Source of the DNA: Candidatus Eiseniibacteriota bacterium
GTDB lineage: Bacteria > Eisenbacteria > RBG-16-71-46
NCBI GenBank assembly: GCA_016215625.1
Contig: JACRIW010000121.1
Coordinates: 1 to 64,000, forward strand
Direction of reading: 5' to 3'
DNA length: 64,000 nt
The stretch's first letter is position 1; every line of letters begins with the position of its first letter. Below, piece by piece: positions 12,663 through 41,817 of this stretch. A program made the position numbers and the translations under genes. The notes below the pieces were generated by a model, which saw only the letters and a program-made list of their open reading frames with translations, was not told the DNA's origin and did no database searches.

Positions 12663-13907
12663 TCAGCGCAGCGACTCGTACACCCGCACGTAGCTCTGGA
12701 CCATCTCCTCGGCCGTGAAACGCTCGCGTGCGACCTTGCGCCCGCGCCGGCCCATGGTGCGCCGGAGCGGCTCGTTCGTGAGCAGTTTCAACGACGACTC
12801 GACGTACCCGTCCACGTCGGACGGATCGTGCAGGAAACCCGTGTAGCCGTGCTCCACCACCTCGGGCAGGCCGCCGGCATTCGACGTCACGACCGGCACT
12901 TCGGCACTCATGGATTCGAGCGCCACCAGCCCGAAACTCTCGGAGGAGCTCGGTAGGAGGAAGATATCGGCCAGCGGAAACAGCTCCTCCATACAGTCCT
13001 GATTGCCCAGGAACAGCACGTCCCGGTGCACCCCGAGCTCGCGGGCGAGCTGCTCGGCGCCGGCCTTTTCGGGACCGTCCCCGACCATGACCAGCTTGGC
13101 CTTCACCCGCTTGCGGACCTCGGCGAAAGTCTGAATGACCACGGGTATGTTCTTGACCGCGCGGAAGTTGGACGCATGCATGAGCACCTTCGTGTCCGGC
13201 CCGGCGAGGCGCAGCCGGCCCTCGCTCTTGGGCGCGAAGATGTGCGGGTCCACGAAGTTGTAGATCACCTCGATCGGGCGGGTGATGCCGAAGGTCTCCT
13301 CGGCGCGCTCCTTGAGGAACCGGCTCACCGCGGTGACGCGGTCGCTCGACTGGATCGAGAACTGGGTCACCCGGAAGAACGCGGGCTCCGCTCCCACCAC
13401 CGTGATGTCGGTGCCGTGCAGCGTGGTGACCACGCCGAGCTGCTTCGGCATCAGGATCTGCCGCGCGAGGTAGGCGCTCGTCGCGAACGGCATCGCGTAG
13501 TGCACGTGCATGAGGTCGAGGTGGTAGTTCTCGGCGACCTCGACCATCTTCGCGGCGAGCGCGAGGTTGCTCGGCGCGTCCTCGAACACCGGGTAGTACG
13601 CCGGGCTCGACTCGTGGAAGAAGATGTTCGACTCGAAGCTGCGCAGCCGGAACGGCAGGTGCGACGCGACGAGGTGCACCTCGTGGCCGCGGTGCGCGAG
13701 CTCGAGTCCCAGTTCGCTCGCCACGACGCCGCTGCCGCCGAAGTGCGCATAGCACGAGATGCCGATCTTGAGCTTGCGGCGCGGGCGTTTCTTCGGCGTC
13801 ACCGGTTTGCCGGCCAGCTTCGCGAACGCCGCCGCGCGCACCGAGGCGCGCGCCTCGGCGCGGGCGCTCGGGCGCTTCGTCTTCTTCCTGGGCGGGGAAG
13901 CCGCCAC
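12663..13907 (-). CDS. bshA: N-acetyl-alpha-D-glucosaminyl L-malate synthase
   Basis: GT4 glycosyltransferase for the first step of bacillithiol synthesis (UDP-GlcNAc + L-malate), 414 residues. Seen: HFGGSGVVASELGLEL glycine-rich loop, HVHYAMPFATSAYLA, TTLHGTDITVVG, and the E-x7-E motif in SSSESFGLVALESMS. GTG start with AAAGGAG eight bases upstream; another GTG three codons earlier overlaps the bshB1 stop but touches the Shine-Dalgarno. About 45 basic residues (KKTKR, KKRPRRK) precede the conserved core, longer than the usual ~380-residue BshA. bshC and bshB1 lie immediately upstream in the same operon. Confidence 0.93.
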   Translation of the reverse strand: MAASPPRKKTKRPSARAEARASVRAAAFAKLAGKPVTPKKRPRRKLKIGISCYAHFGGSGVVASELGLELAHRGHEVHLVASHLPFRLRSFESNIFFHESSPAYYPVFEDAPSNLALAAKMVEVAENYHLDLMHVHYAMPFATSAYLARQILMPKQLGVVTTLHGTDITVVGAEPAFFRVTQFSIQSSDRVTAVSRFLKERAEETFGITRPIEVIYNFVDPHIFAPKSEGRLRLAGPDTKVLMHASNFRAVKNIPVVIQTFAEVRKRVKAKLVMVGDGPEKAGAEQLARELGVHRDVLFLGNQDCMEELFPLADIFLLPSSSESFGLVALESMSAEVPVVTSNAGGLPEVVEHGYTGFLHDPSDVDGYVESSLKLLTNEPLRRTMGRRGRKVARERFTAEEMVQSYVRVYESLR

Positions 13908-13912
13908 CGCGG

Positions 13913-14623
13913 TCACTCCTTTCCGGCGAGCAGCGCTCGCGCGTCCGACAGGACGAGTGGCCCGCGGGCGCGGTAGCCCTCGCCGAAAGTGGTTCCCGCG
14001 AGTGCGCCCCACGTGCGGGCGCGCGCTTCGACCTCGGCGAGGAAGCCCGGGGCCGTGAGGTACGTGGCCGCGCCGGCGGCCGGAACGAGCTGGCTCGCGT
14101 GGCAGCGCAGCGCCGCCGTGCGCTTCTCCCACACCGCGGTCACGTCCACGACGAGCTGCGCGCGGGCGTCGCCGCGATACAGCGCGTACAGCAGCCGCGC
14201 CGGGCGGTGACGCTCGCCCGCGGCGTCGTAACGCGCGAGGCCCGCGAGATAGCACGCGCGCGTCACGAGGTGCGAGGCCTCGACGTGGTCGGGATGCGCG
14301 TCGTCGAAGTGCGGCGCGACGACGAGCGAGGGCGCGTGCCGCCGGAGGCACTCGACCACGGCCTTCAACTGGGCGCGATCGTGACGGTCCAGCGCGCCGT
14401 CCGGCAACGCGAGGTTCTCGCGCACCGCGGCGCCGAGCGCCTGCGCCGCCGCGCCGGCCTCGCGCGCGCGCGTCTCGACGTCGCCGCGCGTGCCGAGCTC
14501 GCCGCGCGTCAGGTCCGCGATGGCGACGCGCTCACCGCTCGCGGCCAGCAGCGCCGCGAGCCCGGCGCTCGTGAGTTCGACGTCGTCCGGATGCGCCCCG
14601 AAGAACAGTGCGGCCGCGCTCAT
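13913..14623 (-). CDS. bshB1: Bacillithiol biosynthesis deacetylase
   Basis: PIG-L/LmbE-type zinc deacetylase, 236 residues, removing the acetyl group from GlcNAc-malate (second bacillithiol step). Metal/catalytic motif AHPDDVE at 10-16 and second metal motif HFDDAHPDHVEAS near 106-118 are intact; the later His region (CHASQL) is also present. ATG preceded by GGAGGG seven bases upstream. Flanked by bshC and bshA, which makes the BshB1 assignment firm over other LmbE-family functions. Confidence 0.93.
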   Translation of the reverse strand: MSAAALFFGAHPDDVELTSAGLAALLAASGERVAIADLTRGELGTRGDVETRAREAGAAAQALGAAVRENLALPDGALDRHDRAQLKAVVECLRRHAPSLVVAPHFDDAHPDHVEASHLVTRACYLAGLARYDAAGERHRPARLLYALYRGDARAQLVVDVTAVWEKRTAALRCHASQLVPAAGAATYLTAPGFLAEVEARARTWGALAGTTFGEGYRARGPLVLSDARALLAGKE

Positions 14624-14626
14624 GCG

Positions 14627-16270
14627 TCAGCCCTCCAGCAGCCAGTGTTCGTGTACTCCACGTGCGGCGAGCGCCGCGTGCTCGGCCGCCGCGTCGCAGA
14701 GCTCGGCGACGACGCCGATTCCCAGCCGCGCGACCGGCTCGAGCGAGGCGACGCGCCGCTCCTGCAGCTTGCCGCCGGGGCTGAGCGAGTAGCGCAGACG
14801 GCGCCAGACCGGGTTTTCCTTGTCGAAGCGCGCGCGCACTTTCCCGATGAGTCCTTCGTGCAGGCGCGCGAACTGGTAATCCACCTTGCCACGGGCGGAT
14901 TCGACCATCTGCGGCAGGCTCGCGTCGAGCGCACGCGAGGCCTCGGCGAAACGCGCGAGCCCGTCGAGCGCGGCGGCCTTCGCGTTCAGCAGCTCGCCCT
15001 CGAGTTCCGACGGCACGCGCTTCGCGGCCAGTTCGGCGAGCACGGCGTCGGTGTCGGCCACGACGCGCCACGGATCGGCGCCGCTCGCCTCGACGAGCGC
15101 GAGCGCCTCGGGCGGCAGCCAGGTCGCGCCGAAGCGCGGCACGAGCATCGCGGGCTCGACACCCACGCCCTCGAACACCTCGCGCAGCTGCGCGAGGTAC
15201 GCGATCTCACCGGGCCCCACGGCCATCGCGACCGTCGGGAACACGCCGTCCTGCACCGCCGGGCGCAGCGCGACGCTCGGGCTGAGCGTGACGTCCGCTC
15301 CGCGCGCGAGGGCGGCGGCGGCGGAGATCTTGTGCCGCGCGCCGTCCGCGATCTCGAACACGAACGACTCGAGCGAGGCGTCGGTCAGCGGCGTGCGTCC
15401 CGCCCGTTCCTGCAGGCGGGCTCCCGCGGCGCGCGCGGCCTGCTCGAGCGCGGGCGCGTTCGCGAGGTAGCGGCCGATCACCGTGCGCGCCGCGGCGCGG
15501 AATTCCGGCAGCCGCGGATCCACGACCACGAGCCCGGCGCCGGCGAAGAGCTGCAGCAGCAGCGCGGAGGTGACCTCGCCGAGGTCGCGCCCCACGCGCA
15601 TCGCATGCTCCAGCACGCGCGCGGCGTCGGCCTGCCCCGCGAGGCCCGACCACTTCGCGAGCGCGTCGGCGTGCAGCGGCGCGAGGTGCGCGGCCGGGAT
15701 GTTCCCGACCAGCCCGCCCGCCGTGTGCGCGCCGTGGGGCAGCGCGAAGTCGTGCAGTTCGAACGCGCCGTCGAGCACGCTCGCGCCGCGGATCTCGGCG
15801 AAGTCGGAGTCCTCGCCGTGCATCCAGAAGAGCGGCACGCAGGGCTCGCCCACGCGTGCGGTGACGGTGCGCGCGAGGCCCGCGGCGGCGGCGATCTTGT
15901 GCAGCGAGTAGAGCGGCCCGCCGAGCGGCGCGGGCTGCTGGCCCGCCACGGTCGCGACCGCCTCGCCGCGCGCGAGGCGCTCGAGGTTGGCGAGCGATGC
16001 GGCGCCGGCGCCGCGCCGGACGTGCATCTCGGTCATCGCCCGGGCGAGCGCCGGGTCGAGCGGGGCGCGCTTGACCGCGGCCAGGGCGCGAAGGTCGTCG
16101 TCGGAGGTCCACGTGCGCGCGAACCGCTCGCGCGCGAGCGGACCGTGGGTCACGAGGTCACGCGTGATCGCGTCGTTCAGGCGGTCCCAGGGCGCTTCGT
16201 CGCGCCCGGCGACGCGGGCACGGACGGCGAGGGTTCCCGCCTTCAATGCGCACGCTCCCATCGGGAACAT
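14627..16270 (-). CDS. bshC: Putative cysteine ligase of bacillithiol synthesis
   Basis: 547 residues as given. BshC landmarks: TVAGQQPAPLGGPLYSLHKI, PLFWMHGEDSDFAEI, a coiled-coil-rich C-terminal half, and SPGGKLQERR near the end. It is believed to add cysteine to GlcN-malate, the last step. The ATG at 16270 has no Shine-Dalgarno. An in-frame TTG at 16246 has GGGAG eight bases upstream, overlaps the stop of a 26-codon upstream ORF by four bases, and would give 539 residues, the usual length. Either start is possible. Probably first gene of the operon running to rsgA. Confidence 0.92.
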   Translation of the reverse strand: MFPMGACALKAGTLAVRARVAGRDEAPWDRLNDAITRDLVTHGPLARERFARTWTSDDDLRALAAVKRAPLDPALARAMTEMHVRRGAGAASLANLERLARGEAVATVAGQQPAPLGGPLYSLHKIAAAAGLARTVTARVGEPCVPLFWMHGEDSDFAEIRGASVLDGAFELHDFALPHGAHTAGGLVGNIPAAHLAPLHADALAKWSGLAGQADAARVLEHAMRVGRDLGEVTSALLLQLFAGAGLVVVDPRLPEFRAAARTVIGRYLANAPALEQAARAAGARLQERAGRTPLTDASLESFVFEIADGARHKISAAAALARGADVTLSPSVALRPAVQDGVFPTVAMAVGPGEIAYLAQLREVFEGVGVEPAMLVPRFGATWLPPEALALVEASGADPWRVVADTDAVLAELAAKRVPSELEGELLNAKAAALDGLARFAEASRALDASLPQMVESARGKVDYQFARLHEGLIGKVRARFDKENPVWRRLRYSLSPGGKLQERRVASLEPVARLGIGVVAELCDAAAEHAALAARGVHEHWLLEG

Positions 16271-35689: not shown

Positions 35690-36244
35690 CTACAGACGAG
35701 GCAGCGTGATTCCGGTCTGCTTCTGGTACTTGCCCGCGCGGTCACCGTACGACGTTTCGCACGGCTCGTCCGACTCGAAGAACAGCACCTGCGCGAGCCC
35801 TTCGTTCGCGTAGATCTTCGCGGGCAGCGGCGTCGTGTTCGAGATCTCGAGCGTGACGTGCCCCTCCCATTCGGGCTCGAACGGCGTCACGTTCGTGATG
35901 ATGCCGCAGCGCGCGTACGTGCTCTTTCCCACGCACACGCACAGCACGTTGCGCGGCACCTTGAAGTACTCGACCGTGCGCGCGAGCGCGAACGAGTTCG
36001 GGGGCACGATGCAGACGTCGCCGGTGTAGTCGATCATGTTGCGAGGATCGATGTGCTTCGGATCGAGCACGGTCGAGTTCACGTTCGTGAAGATCTTGAA
36101 CTCGTTCGCGACGCGCACGTCGTAGCCGTACGACGACAGGCCGTACGAAATGACGCCCGAGCGCACGAGCTTCTCCTCGAACGGCGTGATCATCGCGTGT
36201 TCCTGGCACATCCGGCGGATCCACTTGTCGGACTTGATGGACAT
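35690..36244 (-). CDS. dcd: dCTP deaminase
   Basis: 184 residues, usual length. It converts dCTP to dUTP (or dUMP in bifunctional forms). Core motifs: [14 protein letters not shown], the active-site [20 protein letters not shown] (Ser, Arg) and the catalytic-Glu strand [20 protein letters not shown], then [12 protein letters not shown] with GAGGG upstream. Last gene of the seven-gene operon that begins at 41233. Confidence 0.95.
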
Positions 36245-36252
36245 GTCGGCCC

Positions 36253-36903
36253 TCAGGGTTGGAAACGCCCGAGCAGGCGCACGGCGTGCGCGAGTTCGGG
36301 CAGCAGCAGTGATTCGAGCGCGAGTTCGACCGCGGGGGTCGAGCCCGGAAGCAGGACGAGAAGACGGCCCGCGGCGACGCCCGCGGTCGCGCGGCTGAGC
36401 CACGCGGCGGCGCCGATCTGCGCGACCGATTTCGCGCGGAACAGTTCGCCGAAGCCCGGCAGTTCGCGCGTGAAGAGCGGCGCGAGCGCCTCGGGCGTGA
36501 CGTCGCGCGGCGCGACGCCGGTGCCGCCGGTGACGAGCACGACGTCCACGTCGGCGCGCTTGAGCAGCGCGCGCACGGCCTTACGGATGGCGGGGATCTC
36601 GTCGCGCACCCACGCGCGCTGCACGACCTCGTGGCCCGCGTGCTCGAACATCTCGTGCGCGCGAGCGCCGCTGCCGTCGTCGTGCGGGCCGCGCGTGTCG
36701 GACACGGTCACGATCGCCACGCCGACGGGACGCGGCGCGCCGTGCGGACGATGCTCGCCGCTGCGGACGACCCTGAGCGACGGGCGGGAACGAGCACCTC
36801 CGGCGCCGCGCGGTTCGCGCGGCTCACGCGGGCCGGCGCCGCCCGAGCCACCGCCGCCCTTGCGCGCGGGCAGCGCCGCCGGTGCGGGTCGCCGCGCGCT
36901 CAC
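36253..36903 (-). CDS. moaB: Molybdenum cofactor biosynthesis protein, MoaB/MogA family
   Basis: 216 residues. The MoCF-binding domain is intact ([57 protein letters not shown]): molybdopterin adenylyltransferase type. About 60 residues of Gly/Pro/Arg-rich low complexity ([17 protein letters not shown]) precede it, absent from ordinary MoaB (~170 aa). GTG start overlapping the SDR-like gene stop (GTGA); a later start would remove the extension. No other moa/moe genes in view. Confidence 0.88.
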
Positions 36904-37586
36904 GCCGTCACCTCGCCGCGCACGGCCTGCTCGATCGGCGTCGGCGCGATCGGGAAACGCGCGCACCACGGCGCGCTCTCGGCGAGCCGGTGCTCGGCCA
37001 TCTCGTCGAGCGCCGGTTCCCACTCGCCCGCGTCGCGGCCGCGACCGGCGTCGCGCGCGAGATCGCGCAACTCGCCGAGCGTCCACACGCGCGGTCCCGC
37101 GACCTCGAACCAGTCGCCCCACGGCGCGTCGCCGCCCAGCGCGCGCACGAGCGTCTCGACCGCGTCGCGTTCGGCGACGGGGTTGAGCTGCGTGCGGCCG
37201 CCGCGCGGCAGCGACGGCTGGGTGCGGAGCCTGTTCCAGAGCGGCGTGTCCGGCCCGAGCAGCGGCGCGAATCGCAGCGTGAGCGTGGGCGCTCCCCCGC
37301 CGCGCACGTGCTCTTCCATCCGCCAGAGCCGCTGCAGCGAAGCGGCCTTCGCGTCCGGGTGCGCGCCCAGGCGTGAGAGCACCAGCACGCGGAACGGCCG
37401 CGGCGCGATCGCGCGCACCAGCCCCGCGAAGTCGAACACGAACGGTCCGTCGGAGATCGCGAGCGTCACCGGCCCGTCGCCCGCGGGCGGTCCCGCGGAC
37501 GCGTCGCGCACGTCGTGTCCCTTCGCCGCGAGCGCGGCGAGCAATCGCGCGGCGGGCGCCGCCAGCGGTCCGGGCGTGACGATCAC
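36900..37586 (-). CDS. NAD(P)-binding SDR-like protein of unknown function
   Basis: 228 residues. It looks like an atypical SDR/NmrA-type protein that has lost the glycine-rich N-terminal loop: VIVTPGPLAAPAARLLAALA replaces GATGxxG, while RPFRVLVLSRLGAHPDAKAA, LTLRFAPLLGPDTPLWNRL, NPVAERDAVETLVRAL and WFEVAGPRVWTLGELRDLA follow complex-I-assembly/NmrA-like order. Without the loop, cofactor binding is doubtful. GTG start overlapping the carbonic-anhydrase fusion stop; it overlaps moaB at its 3' end. Confidence 0.6.
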   Translation of the reverse strand: MIVTPGPLAAPAARLLAALAAKGHDVRDASAGPPAGDGPVTLAISDGPFVFDFAGLVRAIAPRPFRVLVLSRLGAHPDAKAASLQRLWRMEEHVRGGGAPTLTLRFAPLLGPDTPLWNRLRTQPSLPRGGRTQLNPVAERDAVETLVRALGGDAPWGDWFEVAGPRVWTLGELRDLARDAGRGRDAGEWEPALDEMAEHRLAESAPWCARFPIAPTPIEQAVRGEVTA

Positions 37587-38614
37587 GCCGCGCCTTCCAG
37601 CGCCGCGCGGATCTGGCGGCGGTGCGAGAGGTCGTGATCGCTCCACATGCGCACGTGATCGGCGAGGGTGAGCGGCCCGAACTTCGCGTGCACCCACGGC
37701 CGGCGCCACGCGTCGGCGCGCAGGCGTTCCAGCACGCGCATCGCGGCGGCGCGCTCGGCCGTCCACGCGGCGAGCGCCTCGGCGGCGGACGTGGCCGCGT
37801 ACATCCCGGTCTCGAGCGCCGAGGGCGGCAGCGCCGGAAAGTCCTCGGCGACCATGCGCACGAGCCGCACGTGCATGAGGTCGCGGTCGCAGTCGCGCAG
37901 GTGGCAGAGCACGTCCGTGCCGCCCCACCTGCCCGGCGCGGGCCGCGCCGCGAAGCGCGCTTCGCCCGCCGCGGCGAGTTGCGCCGCGGCCCACGCGGGG
38001 CTGCCGCGCAGCACGTCGAGCCGCTGCTCCCACTCGAGCCACGTCATGCCCTGCGCCGCGACCGGCAGCAGGTGCGTGCTGGACGTGCGCACGGCTTCCA
38101 CGCCGCGCTTCAGGTACGCCCGCGACAGCTCCGCGTAGTGCTTCGCGCCCACCGCGATCGCCTGGGTGTGCGCTTCCGACACCGGGCCGATCACGCGCGC
38201 CGGGGCGCCGAGCGCGAGCGAACCCGGCGGGATCACCTGGCCTTCCTTCACCAATGCGCCCGCGCCGATCAACGAACCCGTGCCGATGCGGGCGCCCGAG
38301 AGCACGACGGCGCCCATGCCGATCAGCACGTCGTCCTCGACCACGCAGCCGTGCACGATCGCGCGGTGCCCGACCGTGACGCGGTTGCCGACGATCGCGG
38401 GCATTCCTTCGTCCACGTGCACGACCGAGTTGTCCTGGATGTTCGTGTCGTCGCCGATCTCGATGCGCTCGGAGTCGCCGCGCGCGACCGTGTTGAACCA
38501 GACGGACGAGCGCGCGCCGAGCTTCACCTCGCCCACCACGATCGCGCCGGGCGCGACGAAGGCGGTCGGGTGGAGGTCGAGCGCGTTCGGGAAGTCGCGG
38601 TGACGGTCGTTCAT
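37583..38614 (-). CDS. Gamma-carbonic anhydrase-like / DinB-domain fusion
   Basis: 343 residues in two parts. Residues 1-~175 form a left-handed beta-helix of the gamma-CA/PaaY/YrdA family: SSVWFNTVARGDSERIEIGD, TNIQDNSVVHVDEGMPAIVG, VTVGHRAIVHGCVVEDDVLI with the metal His residues, and GSLALGAPARVIGPV. Residues ~190-343 look like a DinB/YfiT four-helix domain: WLEWEQRL, ARPAPGRWGGTDVLCHLRDC with CHLRDCDRDLMH, and DHDLSHRRQIRAAL, supplying the His-x3/His metal triad. I do not know this fusion as a standard architecture. DinB members include bacillithiol S-transferases. ATG overlaps the hydrolase stop (ATGA). Confidence 0.85.
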   Translation of the reverse strand: MNDRHRDFPNALDLHPTAFVAPGAIVVGEVKLGARSSVWFNTVARGDSERIEIGDDTNIQDNSVVHVDEGMPAIVGNRVTVGHRAIVHGCVVEDDVLIGMGAVVLSGARIGTGSLIGAGALVKEGQVIPPGSLALGAPARVIGPVSEAHTQAIAVGAKHYAELSRAYLKRGVEAVRTSSTHLLPVAAQGMTWLEWEQRLDVLRGSPAWAAAQLAAAGEARFAARPAPGRWGGTDVLCHLRDCDRDLMHVRLVRMVAEDFPALPPSALETGMYAATSAAEALAAWTAERAAAMRVLERLRADAWRRPWVHAKFGPLTLADHVRMWSDHDLSHRRQIRAALEGAA

Positions 38615-39255
38615 CGCCGCATCGCTCCGTCGCCCACGAACGGGTTCCACTCGCGCTCGTGCCCGATCGTCGTGGACGGGCCGTGGCCCGGCAGGCAGCG
38701 CACGCCGTCCTCGAAGCAGAACAGCCGCTCGCGCACGCTGTGCACGAGGTCCTCCCACGAGCACAGCGGCAGGTCGGTGCGCCCGACCGATTCGCGGAAC
38801 AGCACGTCGCCCACCCAGATCGTGTCGCCGTGCTTGAACGCGACGTGCCCGGGCGCGTGCCCGGGCGTGAAGATCACCTCGAGCTCCTGCTCGCCCAGCT
38901 TCACGATCTCGCGATCGGAAAGTTCGTGCCCGATCTCGGGCACGTCCACCGGCGGGAAGCCGAACATCGAGCCCTGCTGCTTCACGGTGGCGAGCAGCGG
39001 GCGGTCGGCCGGGTGCAGCGCGTACACGCCGCCGACGGCCTTCTGCACCGCGAGCATGCCGGCGACGTGGTCGTAGTGCGCGTGCGTGCCGAGCAGCCAC
39101 TTCACCGGCAGCTTCTCGCGCTGCACGAGCGCGATGACGGCCTCGGGCTCGAAGCCCACGTCCACGACCGCGCTCTCGCGCGTGACCGGGCAGGTCAGCA
39201 CGTACGTGTTGTTGCCGAGCGGGCCCAGCTGCAGCGTGCGGTTCTCGATCGGCAT
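38611..39255 (-). CDS. Metallo-beta-lactamase-fold hydrolase (glyoxalase II-like)
   Basis: 214 residues. Zinc motifs: THAHYDHVAG (HxHxDH), PGHAPGHV, GDVLFRESVGRTDLP with the bridging Asp, and LPGHGPSTTIGHEREWNPF. Belongs to the YcbL/hydroxyacylglutathione-hydrolase-like branch, lacking the C-terminal glutathione-binding domain of GloB. In a bacillithiol producer the natural substrate could be an S-acyl-bacillithiol; this is inference. ATG shares one base with the upstream oxidoreductase stop (TGATG). Confidence 0.88.
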   Translation of the reverse strand: MPIENRTLQLGPLGNNTYVLTCPVTRESAVVDVGFEPEAVIALVQREKLPVKWLLGTHAHYDHVAGMLAVQKAVGGVYALHPADRPLLATVKQQGSMFGFPPVDVPEIGHELSDREIVKLGEQELEVIFTPGHAPGHVAFKHGDTIWVGDVLFRESVGRTDLPLCSWEDLVHSVRERLFCFEDGVRCLPGHGPSTTIGHEREWNPFVGDGAMRR

Positions 39256-40412
39256 CAGATGACGTTGGCTTCGAGGGCGACGCGGCCGTCGCGGAAGCGT
39301 TCGATCGCGAGGCCCGACAGGTCGAGGCTGGGTTTCCCGTCCACGATCCACTCGGCGAGCAGCTGCCCGACTCCCGGCGCCTGCATGAAGCCGTGACCGC
39401 TGAAGCCGTTCGCGAGCATGAGGCCCTTCACGCCCTGCACGGGGCCGAGCACCGCGTTGTGGTCGGGCGTCGTCTCGTAGAGGCCCGCCCAGCCGGTCTT
39501 GATCTCGGCGACCTCGAGCCCGGGTACGCGCTCCATGGCCGGTCCGACGACCTGCTCGAGGAAGTCCCAGTTCACGCTCGTGTCGAAGCTCGTCGGCTCG
39601 TCCTTGTCGGCCAGGCCGAGCAGCATGCCGCCGCTCTCGCGGTGCATGTACACGCCCGAGTTCATGTCCACGATCATGGGCAGCCGCTCGTGCACCCAGT
39701 CGAGCGGCTGCGTGATGAAGCAGTGGCGGCGGTACGGCAGCACGGGCAGGTCCACGCCCGCCCAGCGCGCGATCTCGGCCGCGTACGGTCCGGCGGCGTT
39801 GATCACGAGCGGCGAGTGGATGTCGCCCTGCGCGGTGCGCACGCCGGTGATCGTGTCGCCGTCCATGAGCAGCCCGGTCGCGGGGCGCTCGAAGAGGAAC
39901 CTCGCTCCGAGTTCGCGCGCCTTCGATTCGTAGCCCTGCGTGACCATGTGCGGGTCACCGAGGCCGTCGGTGGAGCAGAACGTGCCCCCCAGCACGCCCT
40001 CCATGTTCACCTCGGGCACGATCGCCGAGGCGTCCGCGGGGCTCAGCGTGGTGACCGGAAGCCCGAGGGCGCGCTGCATGTCGGCCTGCGCCTGGAACGC
40101 CGCCCACTGCGCCGGGTCGGAGAGCAGGAACAGGTAGCCGACGGGCCAGAACACCTGCCCGGTGCCCATCTCCTCGGGGAAGCGCAGGAAGTGCTCGACC
40201 GAGAGCTTGCTCAGCTGCACGTTGACCTTGGAGGAGAACTGCTGGCGGATGCCGCCCGCCGCCTTGCTCGTGCTGCCGGTGCCCGCGAACTTCTCCTTCT
40301 CGAGCACCACCACGCCCTTCACGCCGCGCTTGCCGAGGTGATAGGCGATCGATGCGCCGATGCAGCCCGCTCCCACCACGACGACCGGAGCCGTCTCGCG
40401 TCCCGCGTTCAC
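39255..40412 (-). CDS. FAD-dependent oxidoreductase, DAO/sarcosine oxidase beta-like
   Basis: 385 residues. FAD-binding VVVVGAGCIGASIAYHLGKR at about 10-29, TGSTSKAAGGIRQQFSS, PVGYLFLLSD, GLGDPHMVTQGY, VINAAGPYAAEIARWAG and the C-terminal ANGFSGHGFMQAPGVGQLLAEW. Matches the sarcosine-oxidase/dimethylglycine-dehydrogenase/FAD-dependent amine oxidase branch; the substrate is probably an N-methyl or secondary amino acid. GTG start with GGAGG six to seven bases upstream, overlapping the TIM-barrel gene stop (GTGA). Confidence 0.88.
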   Translation of the reverse strand: MNAGRETAPVVVVGAGCIGASIAYHLGKRGVKGVVVLEKEKFAGTGSTSKAAGGIRQQFSSKVNVQLSKLSVEHFLRFPEEMGTGQVFWPVGYLFLLSDPAQWAAFQAQADMQRALGLPVTTLSPADASAIVPEVNMEGVLGGTFCSTDGLGDPHMVTQGYESKARELGARFLFERPATGLLMDGDTITGVRTAQGDIHSPLVINAAGPYAAEIARWAGVDLPVLPYRRHCFITQPLDWVHERLPMIVDMNSGVYMHRESGGMLLGLADKDEPTSFDTSVNWDFLEQVVGPAMERVPGLEVAEIKTGWAGLYETTPDHNAVLGPVQGVKGLMLANGFSGHGFMQAPGVGQLLAEWIVDGKPSLDLSGLAIERFRDGRVALEANVI

Positions 40413-41233
40413 TTGAGCCTCCGATAAGTCTTCTGGAGCAGCAGCGCGTCGTCTTCCATGGCCGGCGATTCGCTCACGACCCATCCCGACACGTTCAGGT
40501 CCTTGAGCGCGCGGAGCAGTTCCTTCCATCGGAACGCCGTCTCCACGAGCGGCTCGTGCCGCTTCTCGCCCTTGGGCCCGTACTGGATGCCGGAGATGTG
40601 CACGTGCAGCCGGTCCAGCGCCGCGCGCCCCAGCGTATGTTCGATCGCGGTCAGCGTCGCCGCGAAGTCCTCGTAATCGTTGTGCTGCCCCGCGTCGCGC
40701 GCGTAGCGGTGAGAGAAGTCGATGCACGGATGCACTCCGGGCACCGCCGCGGCCCACGCGATCACTTCCTCGAGCGAGCCCGCCTGCGTGGGTTTGCCCG
40801 TGAGCTCCGTCCGCACGTCGATCCCGGCCTTCAGTTTCTTGAGGCCCTTCGTGACCGCGCGGAGTCCTTCGAGAATCTTGTCACCGGCCTCTTCGTGCGA
40901 CTGCTGCCCATAGAACCCGGCGTGAAAGCAGAACGACTGCGCGCCACAGCGCGCTCCGAGGCGTCCCGTTTCGACCAGGCGGGCGAGACTGCGCTCCACC
41001 ACGTCCTCGGCCCCGCACAAGTTCACGTAGTACGGCGCGTGGGCGGTGAGCGTGAGGTCGTGCTCGCGAGCGGCTTCGCGGATCGCGTCGGCGGACTCGT
41101 CCGACATCTTCACGCCGTTGACCCAGGCCATCTCGAGATGGTCGAGGCCGAGTTCGCGGGCGCGGCGGATGCCGTGCACGGTGCCCGGACGCGCGCTGCT
41201 GCGCGGAATGCCCGAGGTGCCGAAGCGGAGCAT
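40409..41233 (-). CDS. TIM-barrel AP endonuclease family 2 (endonuclease IV-like)
   Basis: 274 residues. Barrel and metal-site motifs of endonuclease IV: TAHAPYYVNLCG, FCFHAGFYG, RTELTGKPTQAGSLEE, PCIDFSHRYARD, LHVHISGIQYGPKGEKRHEP and VSESPAMEDDAL. Closest in layout to the archaeal-type Nfo/deoxyribonuclease IV proteins, acting at abasic sites; a sugar isomerase role is less likely given the conserved metal ligands. First gene of the seven-gene operon; a -10 lies about 45 bp upstream and no clear Shine-Dalgarno is visible. Confidence 0.82.
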   Translation of the reverse strand: MLRFGTSGIPRSSARPGTVHGIRRARELGLDHLEMAWVNGVKMSDESADAIREAAREHDLTLTAHAPYYVNLCGAEDVVERSLARLVETGRLGARCGAQSFCFHAGFYGQQSHEEAGDKILEGLRAVTKGLKKLKAGIDVRTELTGKPTQAGSLEEVIAWAAAVPGVHPCIDFSHRYARDAGQHNDYEDFAATLTAIEHTLGRAALDRLHVHISGIQYGPKGEKRHEPLVETAFRWKELLRALKDLNVSGWVVSESPAMEDDALLLQKTYRRLK

Positions 41234-41334: not shown

Positions 41335-41817
41335 TCAACGCTTGTAGCCGATCTTGCGGAGGAAGTCGGAACGGGCGCCACGGGCGGCCTCGTCCTCGAC
41401 GCCCTTCGGCGCGCTGCCGTCGATCACGCCGACGACGCCGCGCCCCTGCTCGACCTCGGCGACCAGCAGCTGCAGCGGGTTCGCCGTCGCGCAGAACACG
41501 TGGCAGACCTCCTGGCACTGCTTGATCGCCGGGAGCACGTTGATCGGGTAGGCGCCGCGCAGCACGAGGTGGAAGACGTGGCCGGCGCCGACGGCGAGTG
41601 CGTTCCGGGTGGCGACCTCGACCAGTTCGGGATCGTTCCCTTCGGTGCGCACGAGGCAGGGCCCGGAGGCCTCGCAGAACGCGAGCCCGAACTTCGCGCC
41701 GGGCACGGTGGTGACCACGATCTCGGCGATGTCCTCGACGGTCTTGATGAAGTGCGACTGGCCGACGACGACGTTGCAGTCGGCCGGGAACACGAGCGGC
41801 ACGGCGGAGATGTTCAT
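41335..41817 (-). CDS. Adenosine-specific kinase (PF04008 family)
   Basis: 160 residues, full family length. Blocks: DCNVVVGQSHFIKTVEDIAE, VPGAKFGLAFCEASGPCLVR, RNALAVGAGHVFHLVLRGAY and GVVGVIDGSAPKGVEDEAAR. The family was first characterised in archaea as adenosine-binding; the biochemical role is poorly established in bacteria. ATG with GGGAGGAG upstream and a strong promoter. Stands alone between two operons. Confidence 0.88.
   Translation of the reverse strand: MNISAVPLVFPADCNVVVGQSHFIKTVEDIAEIVVTTVPGAKFGLAFCEASGPCLVRTEGNDPELVEVATRNALAVGAGHVFHLVLRGAYPINVLPAIKQCQEVCHVFCATANPLQLLVAEVEQGRGVVGVIDGSAPKGVEDEAARGARSDFLRKIGYKR

Follow-up and report, generated by a model that had tools for sequence, protein, structure and literature searches.

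An inherited fusion of a gamma-carbonic anhydrase with a DinB/YfiT-like domain in one bacterial family

The window (i.e., the whole stretch of 64,000 nucleotides analysed here) contains a gene in which a gamma-carbonic anhydrase (gamma-CA) domain, a linker of about 20 residues, and a DinB_2 domain are encoded in a single frame (Table 1). This frame runs from an ATG at 38614 to a TGA at 37583-37585, exactly where a first-pass annotation of this DNA had placed such a fusion, and both domains were matched by profiles; Pfam Hexapep matched the protein at 1.3e-14, residues 13-168 matched the NCBIfam gamma carbonic anhydrase model NF050158 at 2.5e-50, and residues 213-335 matched Pfam DinB_2 at 1.1e-10 (42.5 bits; gathering cut-off 24.8). 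The first-pass annotation had also described stop-start overlaps on both sides, and these can be read from the sequence: an overlapping ATGA holds the stop of the upstream metallo-beta-lactamase (MBL)-fold gene and the start of the fusion gene, and an overlapping GTGA holds the start of the next gene downstream and the stop of the fusion gene. An NTGATC stop-start junction is seen again in nearly all relatives that retain the downstream gene.

Table 1. Features of the fusion locus and of the bacillithiol cluster, in window numbering.
Feature	Position	Strand	Basis or remark
Whole fusion gene, 343 aa (gamma-CA + linker + DinB_2)	37583..38614	-	Pfam and NCBIfam; same single frame in relatives
Gamma-carbonic anhydrase domain, residues ~11-169	38108..38584	-	NCBIfam, invariant residues, AlphaFold, Foldseek
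Flexible linker, residues ~170-191	38042..38107	-	Low pLDDT; fast-evolving
DinB_2/YfiT-like four-helix domain, residues 192-343	37586..38041	-	Pfam, His set, fold
Metallo-beta-lactamase-fold hydrolase, glyoxalase II-like, upstream gene	38611..39255	-	Conserved neighbour
FAD-dependent amine/sarcosine-oxidase-like protein, same operon	39255..40412	-	
Endonuclease IV/xylose-isomerase-like TIM barrel, same operon	40409..41233	-	
Downstream gene, without Pfam or NCBIfam match	36900..37586	-	Start overlaps fusion stop
MoaB/MogA-like molybdopterin-binding protein, same gene block	36253..36720	-	
dCTP deaminase, end of conserved gene block	35690..36244	-	
bshA, bshB1, bshC bacillithiol biosynthesis cluster	12663..16270	-	NCBIfam; about 21 kb from the fusion

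The downstream gene is conserved and family-specific and directly follows the fusion gene when present; it is missing in L012, L020, and L023. Judging from its sequence, its product is possibly a degenerate nucleotide-sugar epimerase/NmrA-like protein. On the other side of the fusion, the endonuclease IV-like gene adjoins the MBL gene in three relatives (L014, L015, and L016), with the FAD oxidase gene absent between them. Upstream of the operon, positions 41335-41817 (minus strand) encode a 160-aa protein that gave no NCBIfam match at 1e-5 and that may resemble the adenosine-specific kinase family.

An AlphaFold2 model of the monomer, built from 35 aligned sequences (mean pLDDT 91.2, pTM 0.54), predicts two well-defined domains, the mutual orientation of which is not fixed by the model; pLDDT exceeds 90 over most of residues 11-169, and residues 177-186 are disordered (pLDDT < 50). 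The N-terminal domain is a left-handed beta-helix followed by a C-terminal helix (147-169), and the DinB domain consists of helices at residues 192-216, 232-256, 277-295, and 317-342. Foldseek retrieved the gamma-CAs 9qev (TMt 0.92-0.94) and 6ive for the N-terminal half, and YfiT 1rxq (TMt 0.76) and mycothiol enzymes for the C-terminal half. The YfiT match came from an earlier AlphaFold model with a shallow alignment, in which the beta-helix was poorly predicted; the beta-helix was well predicted in the later model, for which stand-alone homologues had been added to the alignment. With YfiT as its nearest fold and a DinB_2 score above the gathering cut-off, the C-terminal part is DinB-like, as first annotated.

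The gamma-CA half scored 170.5 bits against NF050158, which is under the cut-off of 250 for an equivalog model that defines one group rather than the whole gamma-CA class, yet this was the best model by far. It is 41-51% identical to solved CamH-type members and shares with these enzymes (6ive, Thermus-type; 9qev, Caloramator; 1v3w, Pyrococcus) the beta-helix with its C-terminal helix, the set of three histidines, and the invariant Arg/Asp/Gln/Asp residues; the metal ligands H66, H83, and H88, as well as R45, D47, Q60, and D61, are invariant in 15 orthologues. However, CamH-type enzymes stop after the C-terminal helix; in the fusion, the chain runs on through a linker into a further metal domain. 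CcmM, the carboxysome gamma-CA and a weak NCBIfam match here, resembles the fusion in that its gamma-CA domain is extended by C-terminal modules. In CcmM, a gamma-CA trimer domain is followed by RuBisCO-small-subunit-like modules, whereas the module added in the fusion is a metal-binding DinB bundle.

DinB_2 was matched by the DinB halves of all 15 orthologues, and a profile of this half matched only 2rd9 (BH0186) and YfiT 1rxq in the PDB, both YfiT-like. The fused domain shares with the YfiT/BstA members of this S-transferase-like (DinB/YfiT) superfamily the four-helix bundle and three histidines in register; H238 and H327 align with H67 and H160 of YfiT, and H331 corresponds to H164 by its HxxxH spacing. 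These three YfiT residues form the triad conserved among B. subtilis bacillithiol transferases (PMC5815605). H238, H327, and H331 are invariant in the 15 orthologues, as are H309, D243, and R288. The histidine set first proposed for this domain (CHLRDC, LMH, DHDLSH) therefore stands in part: the histidine of LMH (H247) varies among the orthologues and is ruled out as a metal ligand. Unlike YfiT/BstA, the DinB half is fused to a gamma-CA and lies far in sequence from the curated YfiT bacillithiol transferase model (NF009807). This model, although the nearest in NCBIfam, was matched weakly by 10 of the 15 fused DinB halves, with a best score of 37 bits against a curated cut-off of 160; the window copy gave no match to it at E 0.01, and a stand-alone DinB paralogue in the same genome scored 86 bits. 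EgtB, LmbV, and mycothiol-dependent maleylpyruvate isomerase likewise combine DinB with a second domain, but that partner is not a carbonic anhydrase, and their DinB domain is reported to come first, whereas in the fusion it comes last.

A whole-genome search identified the full-length fusion in 15 of the 20 genomes examined from the family, including that of the window, across 11 genera; the other full-length copies share 48-74% identity with that of the window, and 36-56% over the DinB half. Three further genomes carry copies consistent with the full fusion, two of them cut by contig ends (G003 and G015) and one with a frameshift inside the gamma-CA part (G017). In G007 (L022:1486-2457, minus strand), the DinB half has decayed, retaining none of the three metal histidines and falling below the Pfam DinB_2 cut-off, and in G016 (L023) it is absent; the gamma-CA half is intact in both, and the DinB half is thus not essential everywhere. 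At this G016 locus (L023:1489-2520, plus strand), the gamma-CA lies in frame with a MoaB/MoCF_biosynth domain in a single 344-aa frame, with the loss of the DinB half and of the gene that follows it; this may be a gamma-CA fusion of another kind or the joint left by a deletion, and an internal MoaB start is possible.

Outside the family, no gamma-CA-DinB fusion was found in 26 genomes from the rest of the phylum or in four other phyla (39, 40, 133, and 17 genomes; 229 in total), under strict E-value cut-offs that a divergent fusion could escape and in genome sets that are far from complete. Among plasmid records, none covered 80% of the fusion query, and viral contigs yielded no fusion and one partial gamma-CA-like match; a shallow, single-sequence scan of public genome contigs for the fusion matched one very close relative. 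A term search of the literature did not find the pairing of gamma-CA and DinB described, and none of the published papers on gamma-CA "domain fusion" was about DinB, judged by title. We provisionally regard the protein as a new, lineage-restricted architecture of two known families.

In the outgroup G020, which represents the only other family sampled in the order, the gene order is FAD oxidase, MBL, gamma-CA, and dcd, and the gamma-CA ends alone; in the family with the fusion, the DinB half, the unassigned gene, and the MoaB gene stand between gamma-CA and dcd. A maximum-likelihood tree places the 16 fused DinB domains in a single clade (99/98), which adjoins BH0186 and a stand-alone DinB of G012 and indicates that the fusion arose once. 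The simplest history is a single event in the ancestor of the family, in which a CamH-type gamma-CA gene within an existing operon would have gained a DinB/YfiT-type gene in frame at its 3' end, followed by loss or decay in two lineages. The two halves differ in constraint; in most of the pairs compared, dN/dS of the DinB half exceeded that of the gamma-CA half (e.g., about 0.50 and about 0.14, respectively, for the window and L007).

The genome of the window is predicted to make bacillithiol, as first annotated, with all three pathway proteins scoring above their NCBIfam cut-offs (in parentheses): BshA 486.9 (273.7), BshB1 236.6 (182.5), and BshC 265.9 (265.8). The bshC gene is present in all 21 genomes of the order; because these include the outgroup without the fusion, its co-occurrence with the fusion is uninformative. 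In G002, G007, and G012, bshC shares a contig with the fusion, 13-20 kb away. Two beta-carbonic anhydrase matches were found in the genome of the window, so the fusion need not be the sole carbonic anhydrase of the cell, although eight other members of the order gave no beta-class match.

Taken to the level of function, the reading we favour, tentatively and with a little less than even confidence, is a homotrimeric bifunctional metalloenzyme in which each of the three CamH-type gamma-CA subunits bears a tethered, metal-dependent, thiol-transferase-like domain. The beta-helix half would trimerise and form three three-histidine metal sites at subunit interfaces, as expected from gamma-CAs, which are trimers with metal sites between subunits in a solved member (PMC7199487), and these sites may act on CO2/bicarbonate or in a related hydrolysis. 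On its flexible linker, each DinB domain would use its own three-histidine metal site to activate a low-molecular-weight thiol (probably bacillithiol), which would then be transferred to an electrophilic metabolite. The established domain identities, conserved histidine triads and gamma-CA active-site residues, predicted gamma-CA and YfiT-like folds, single clade, and bsh genes support this model, as does the metal-dependent bacillithiol transferase activity of all of eight divergent B. subtilis superfamily members (PMC5815605). It is weakened by the low transferase score of the DinB half and the better-fitting paralogue, by the faster evolution of this half and its loss or decay in two lineages, by the presence of bshC in the outgroup, and by the score of the gamma-CA half under the equivalog cut-off. 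The bacillithiol transferase on a trimeric scaffold suggested in the first-pass annotation is no more than plausible: YfiT/BstA is the nearest model and fold, but the fused domain scores well short of the transferase cut-off, and "scaffold" does too little justice to a gamma-CA half with invariant catalytic residues.

An artefact that joined two genes by misassembly or frameshift, for which the draft origin of the assembly and the frameshift in G017 might speak, is refuted, in agreement with the first-pass annotation, by the same uninterrupted frame in 15 genomes, the shared linker, and the single DinB clade, and its probability is practically nil; the fusion is real and inherited. That the beta-helix serves as a mere trimerising scaffold for the DinB domain is very unlikely: gamma-CAs are trimeric and about half of those investigated had no measurable activity (PMC7199487), but the metal ligands and key active-site residues of this half are all invariant, and it usually evolves more slowly than its partner.

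The converse, in which the enzymatic work is done by the gamma-CA half, with the DinB half as a weakly constrained appendage (e.g., for stability, partner docking, or residual activity) of little catalytic importance, is a doubtful but weightier alternative. The higher dN/dS of the DinB half, the decay in G007 and absence in G016 beside an intact gamma-CA, and the outgroup operon with gamma-CA alone all point this way, whereas the six DinB residues invariant in 15 divergent copies, the histidine triad among them, argue for a chemistry that has been kept. It is also conceivable, if unlikely, that both halves act in a single pathway that processes thiol conjugates or thioesters, in which DinB makes a thiol adduct that is cleaved by the gamma-CA-like half, as reported for PaaY, or by the adjoining glyoxalase II-like hydrolase; the gene for this hydrolase lies directly upstream of the fusion wherever the flanking sequence extends that far, and PaaY, a bifunctional enzyme of the gamma-CA family according to the literature, was the second-best NCBIfam model for the gamma-CA half. 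With 117.8 bits, however, the match to PaaY falls far short of the cut-off of 319.6, and the outgroup shows that the pairing of MBL and gamma-CA is older than the DinB half.

The bifunctional model could be carried one step further, to an enzyme in which the gamma-CA site (CO2/bicarbonate or hydrolytic chemistry) and the DinB site (bacillithiol chemistry) are coupled in one reaction sequence; we consider this quite unlikely, and, if true, it would connect carbonic anhydrases with low-molecular-weight thiol metabolism in a way not known before. For the gamma-CA family, many members of which are without measured carbonic anhydrase activity, the fusion offers a natural construct for tracing the real reaction, and the relatives in which the DinB half is intact, degenerate, or absent within the same operon provide natural controls. 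Because the partner domain of DinB in EgtB and LmbV is thought to set specificity (PMC5815605), the conserved, single-origin gamma-CA partner offers, in a family with few assigned natural substrates, a concrete clue to the substrate.
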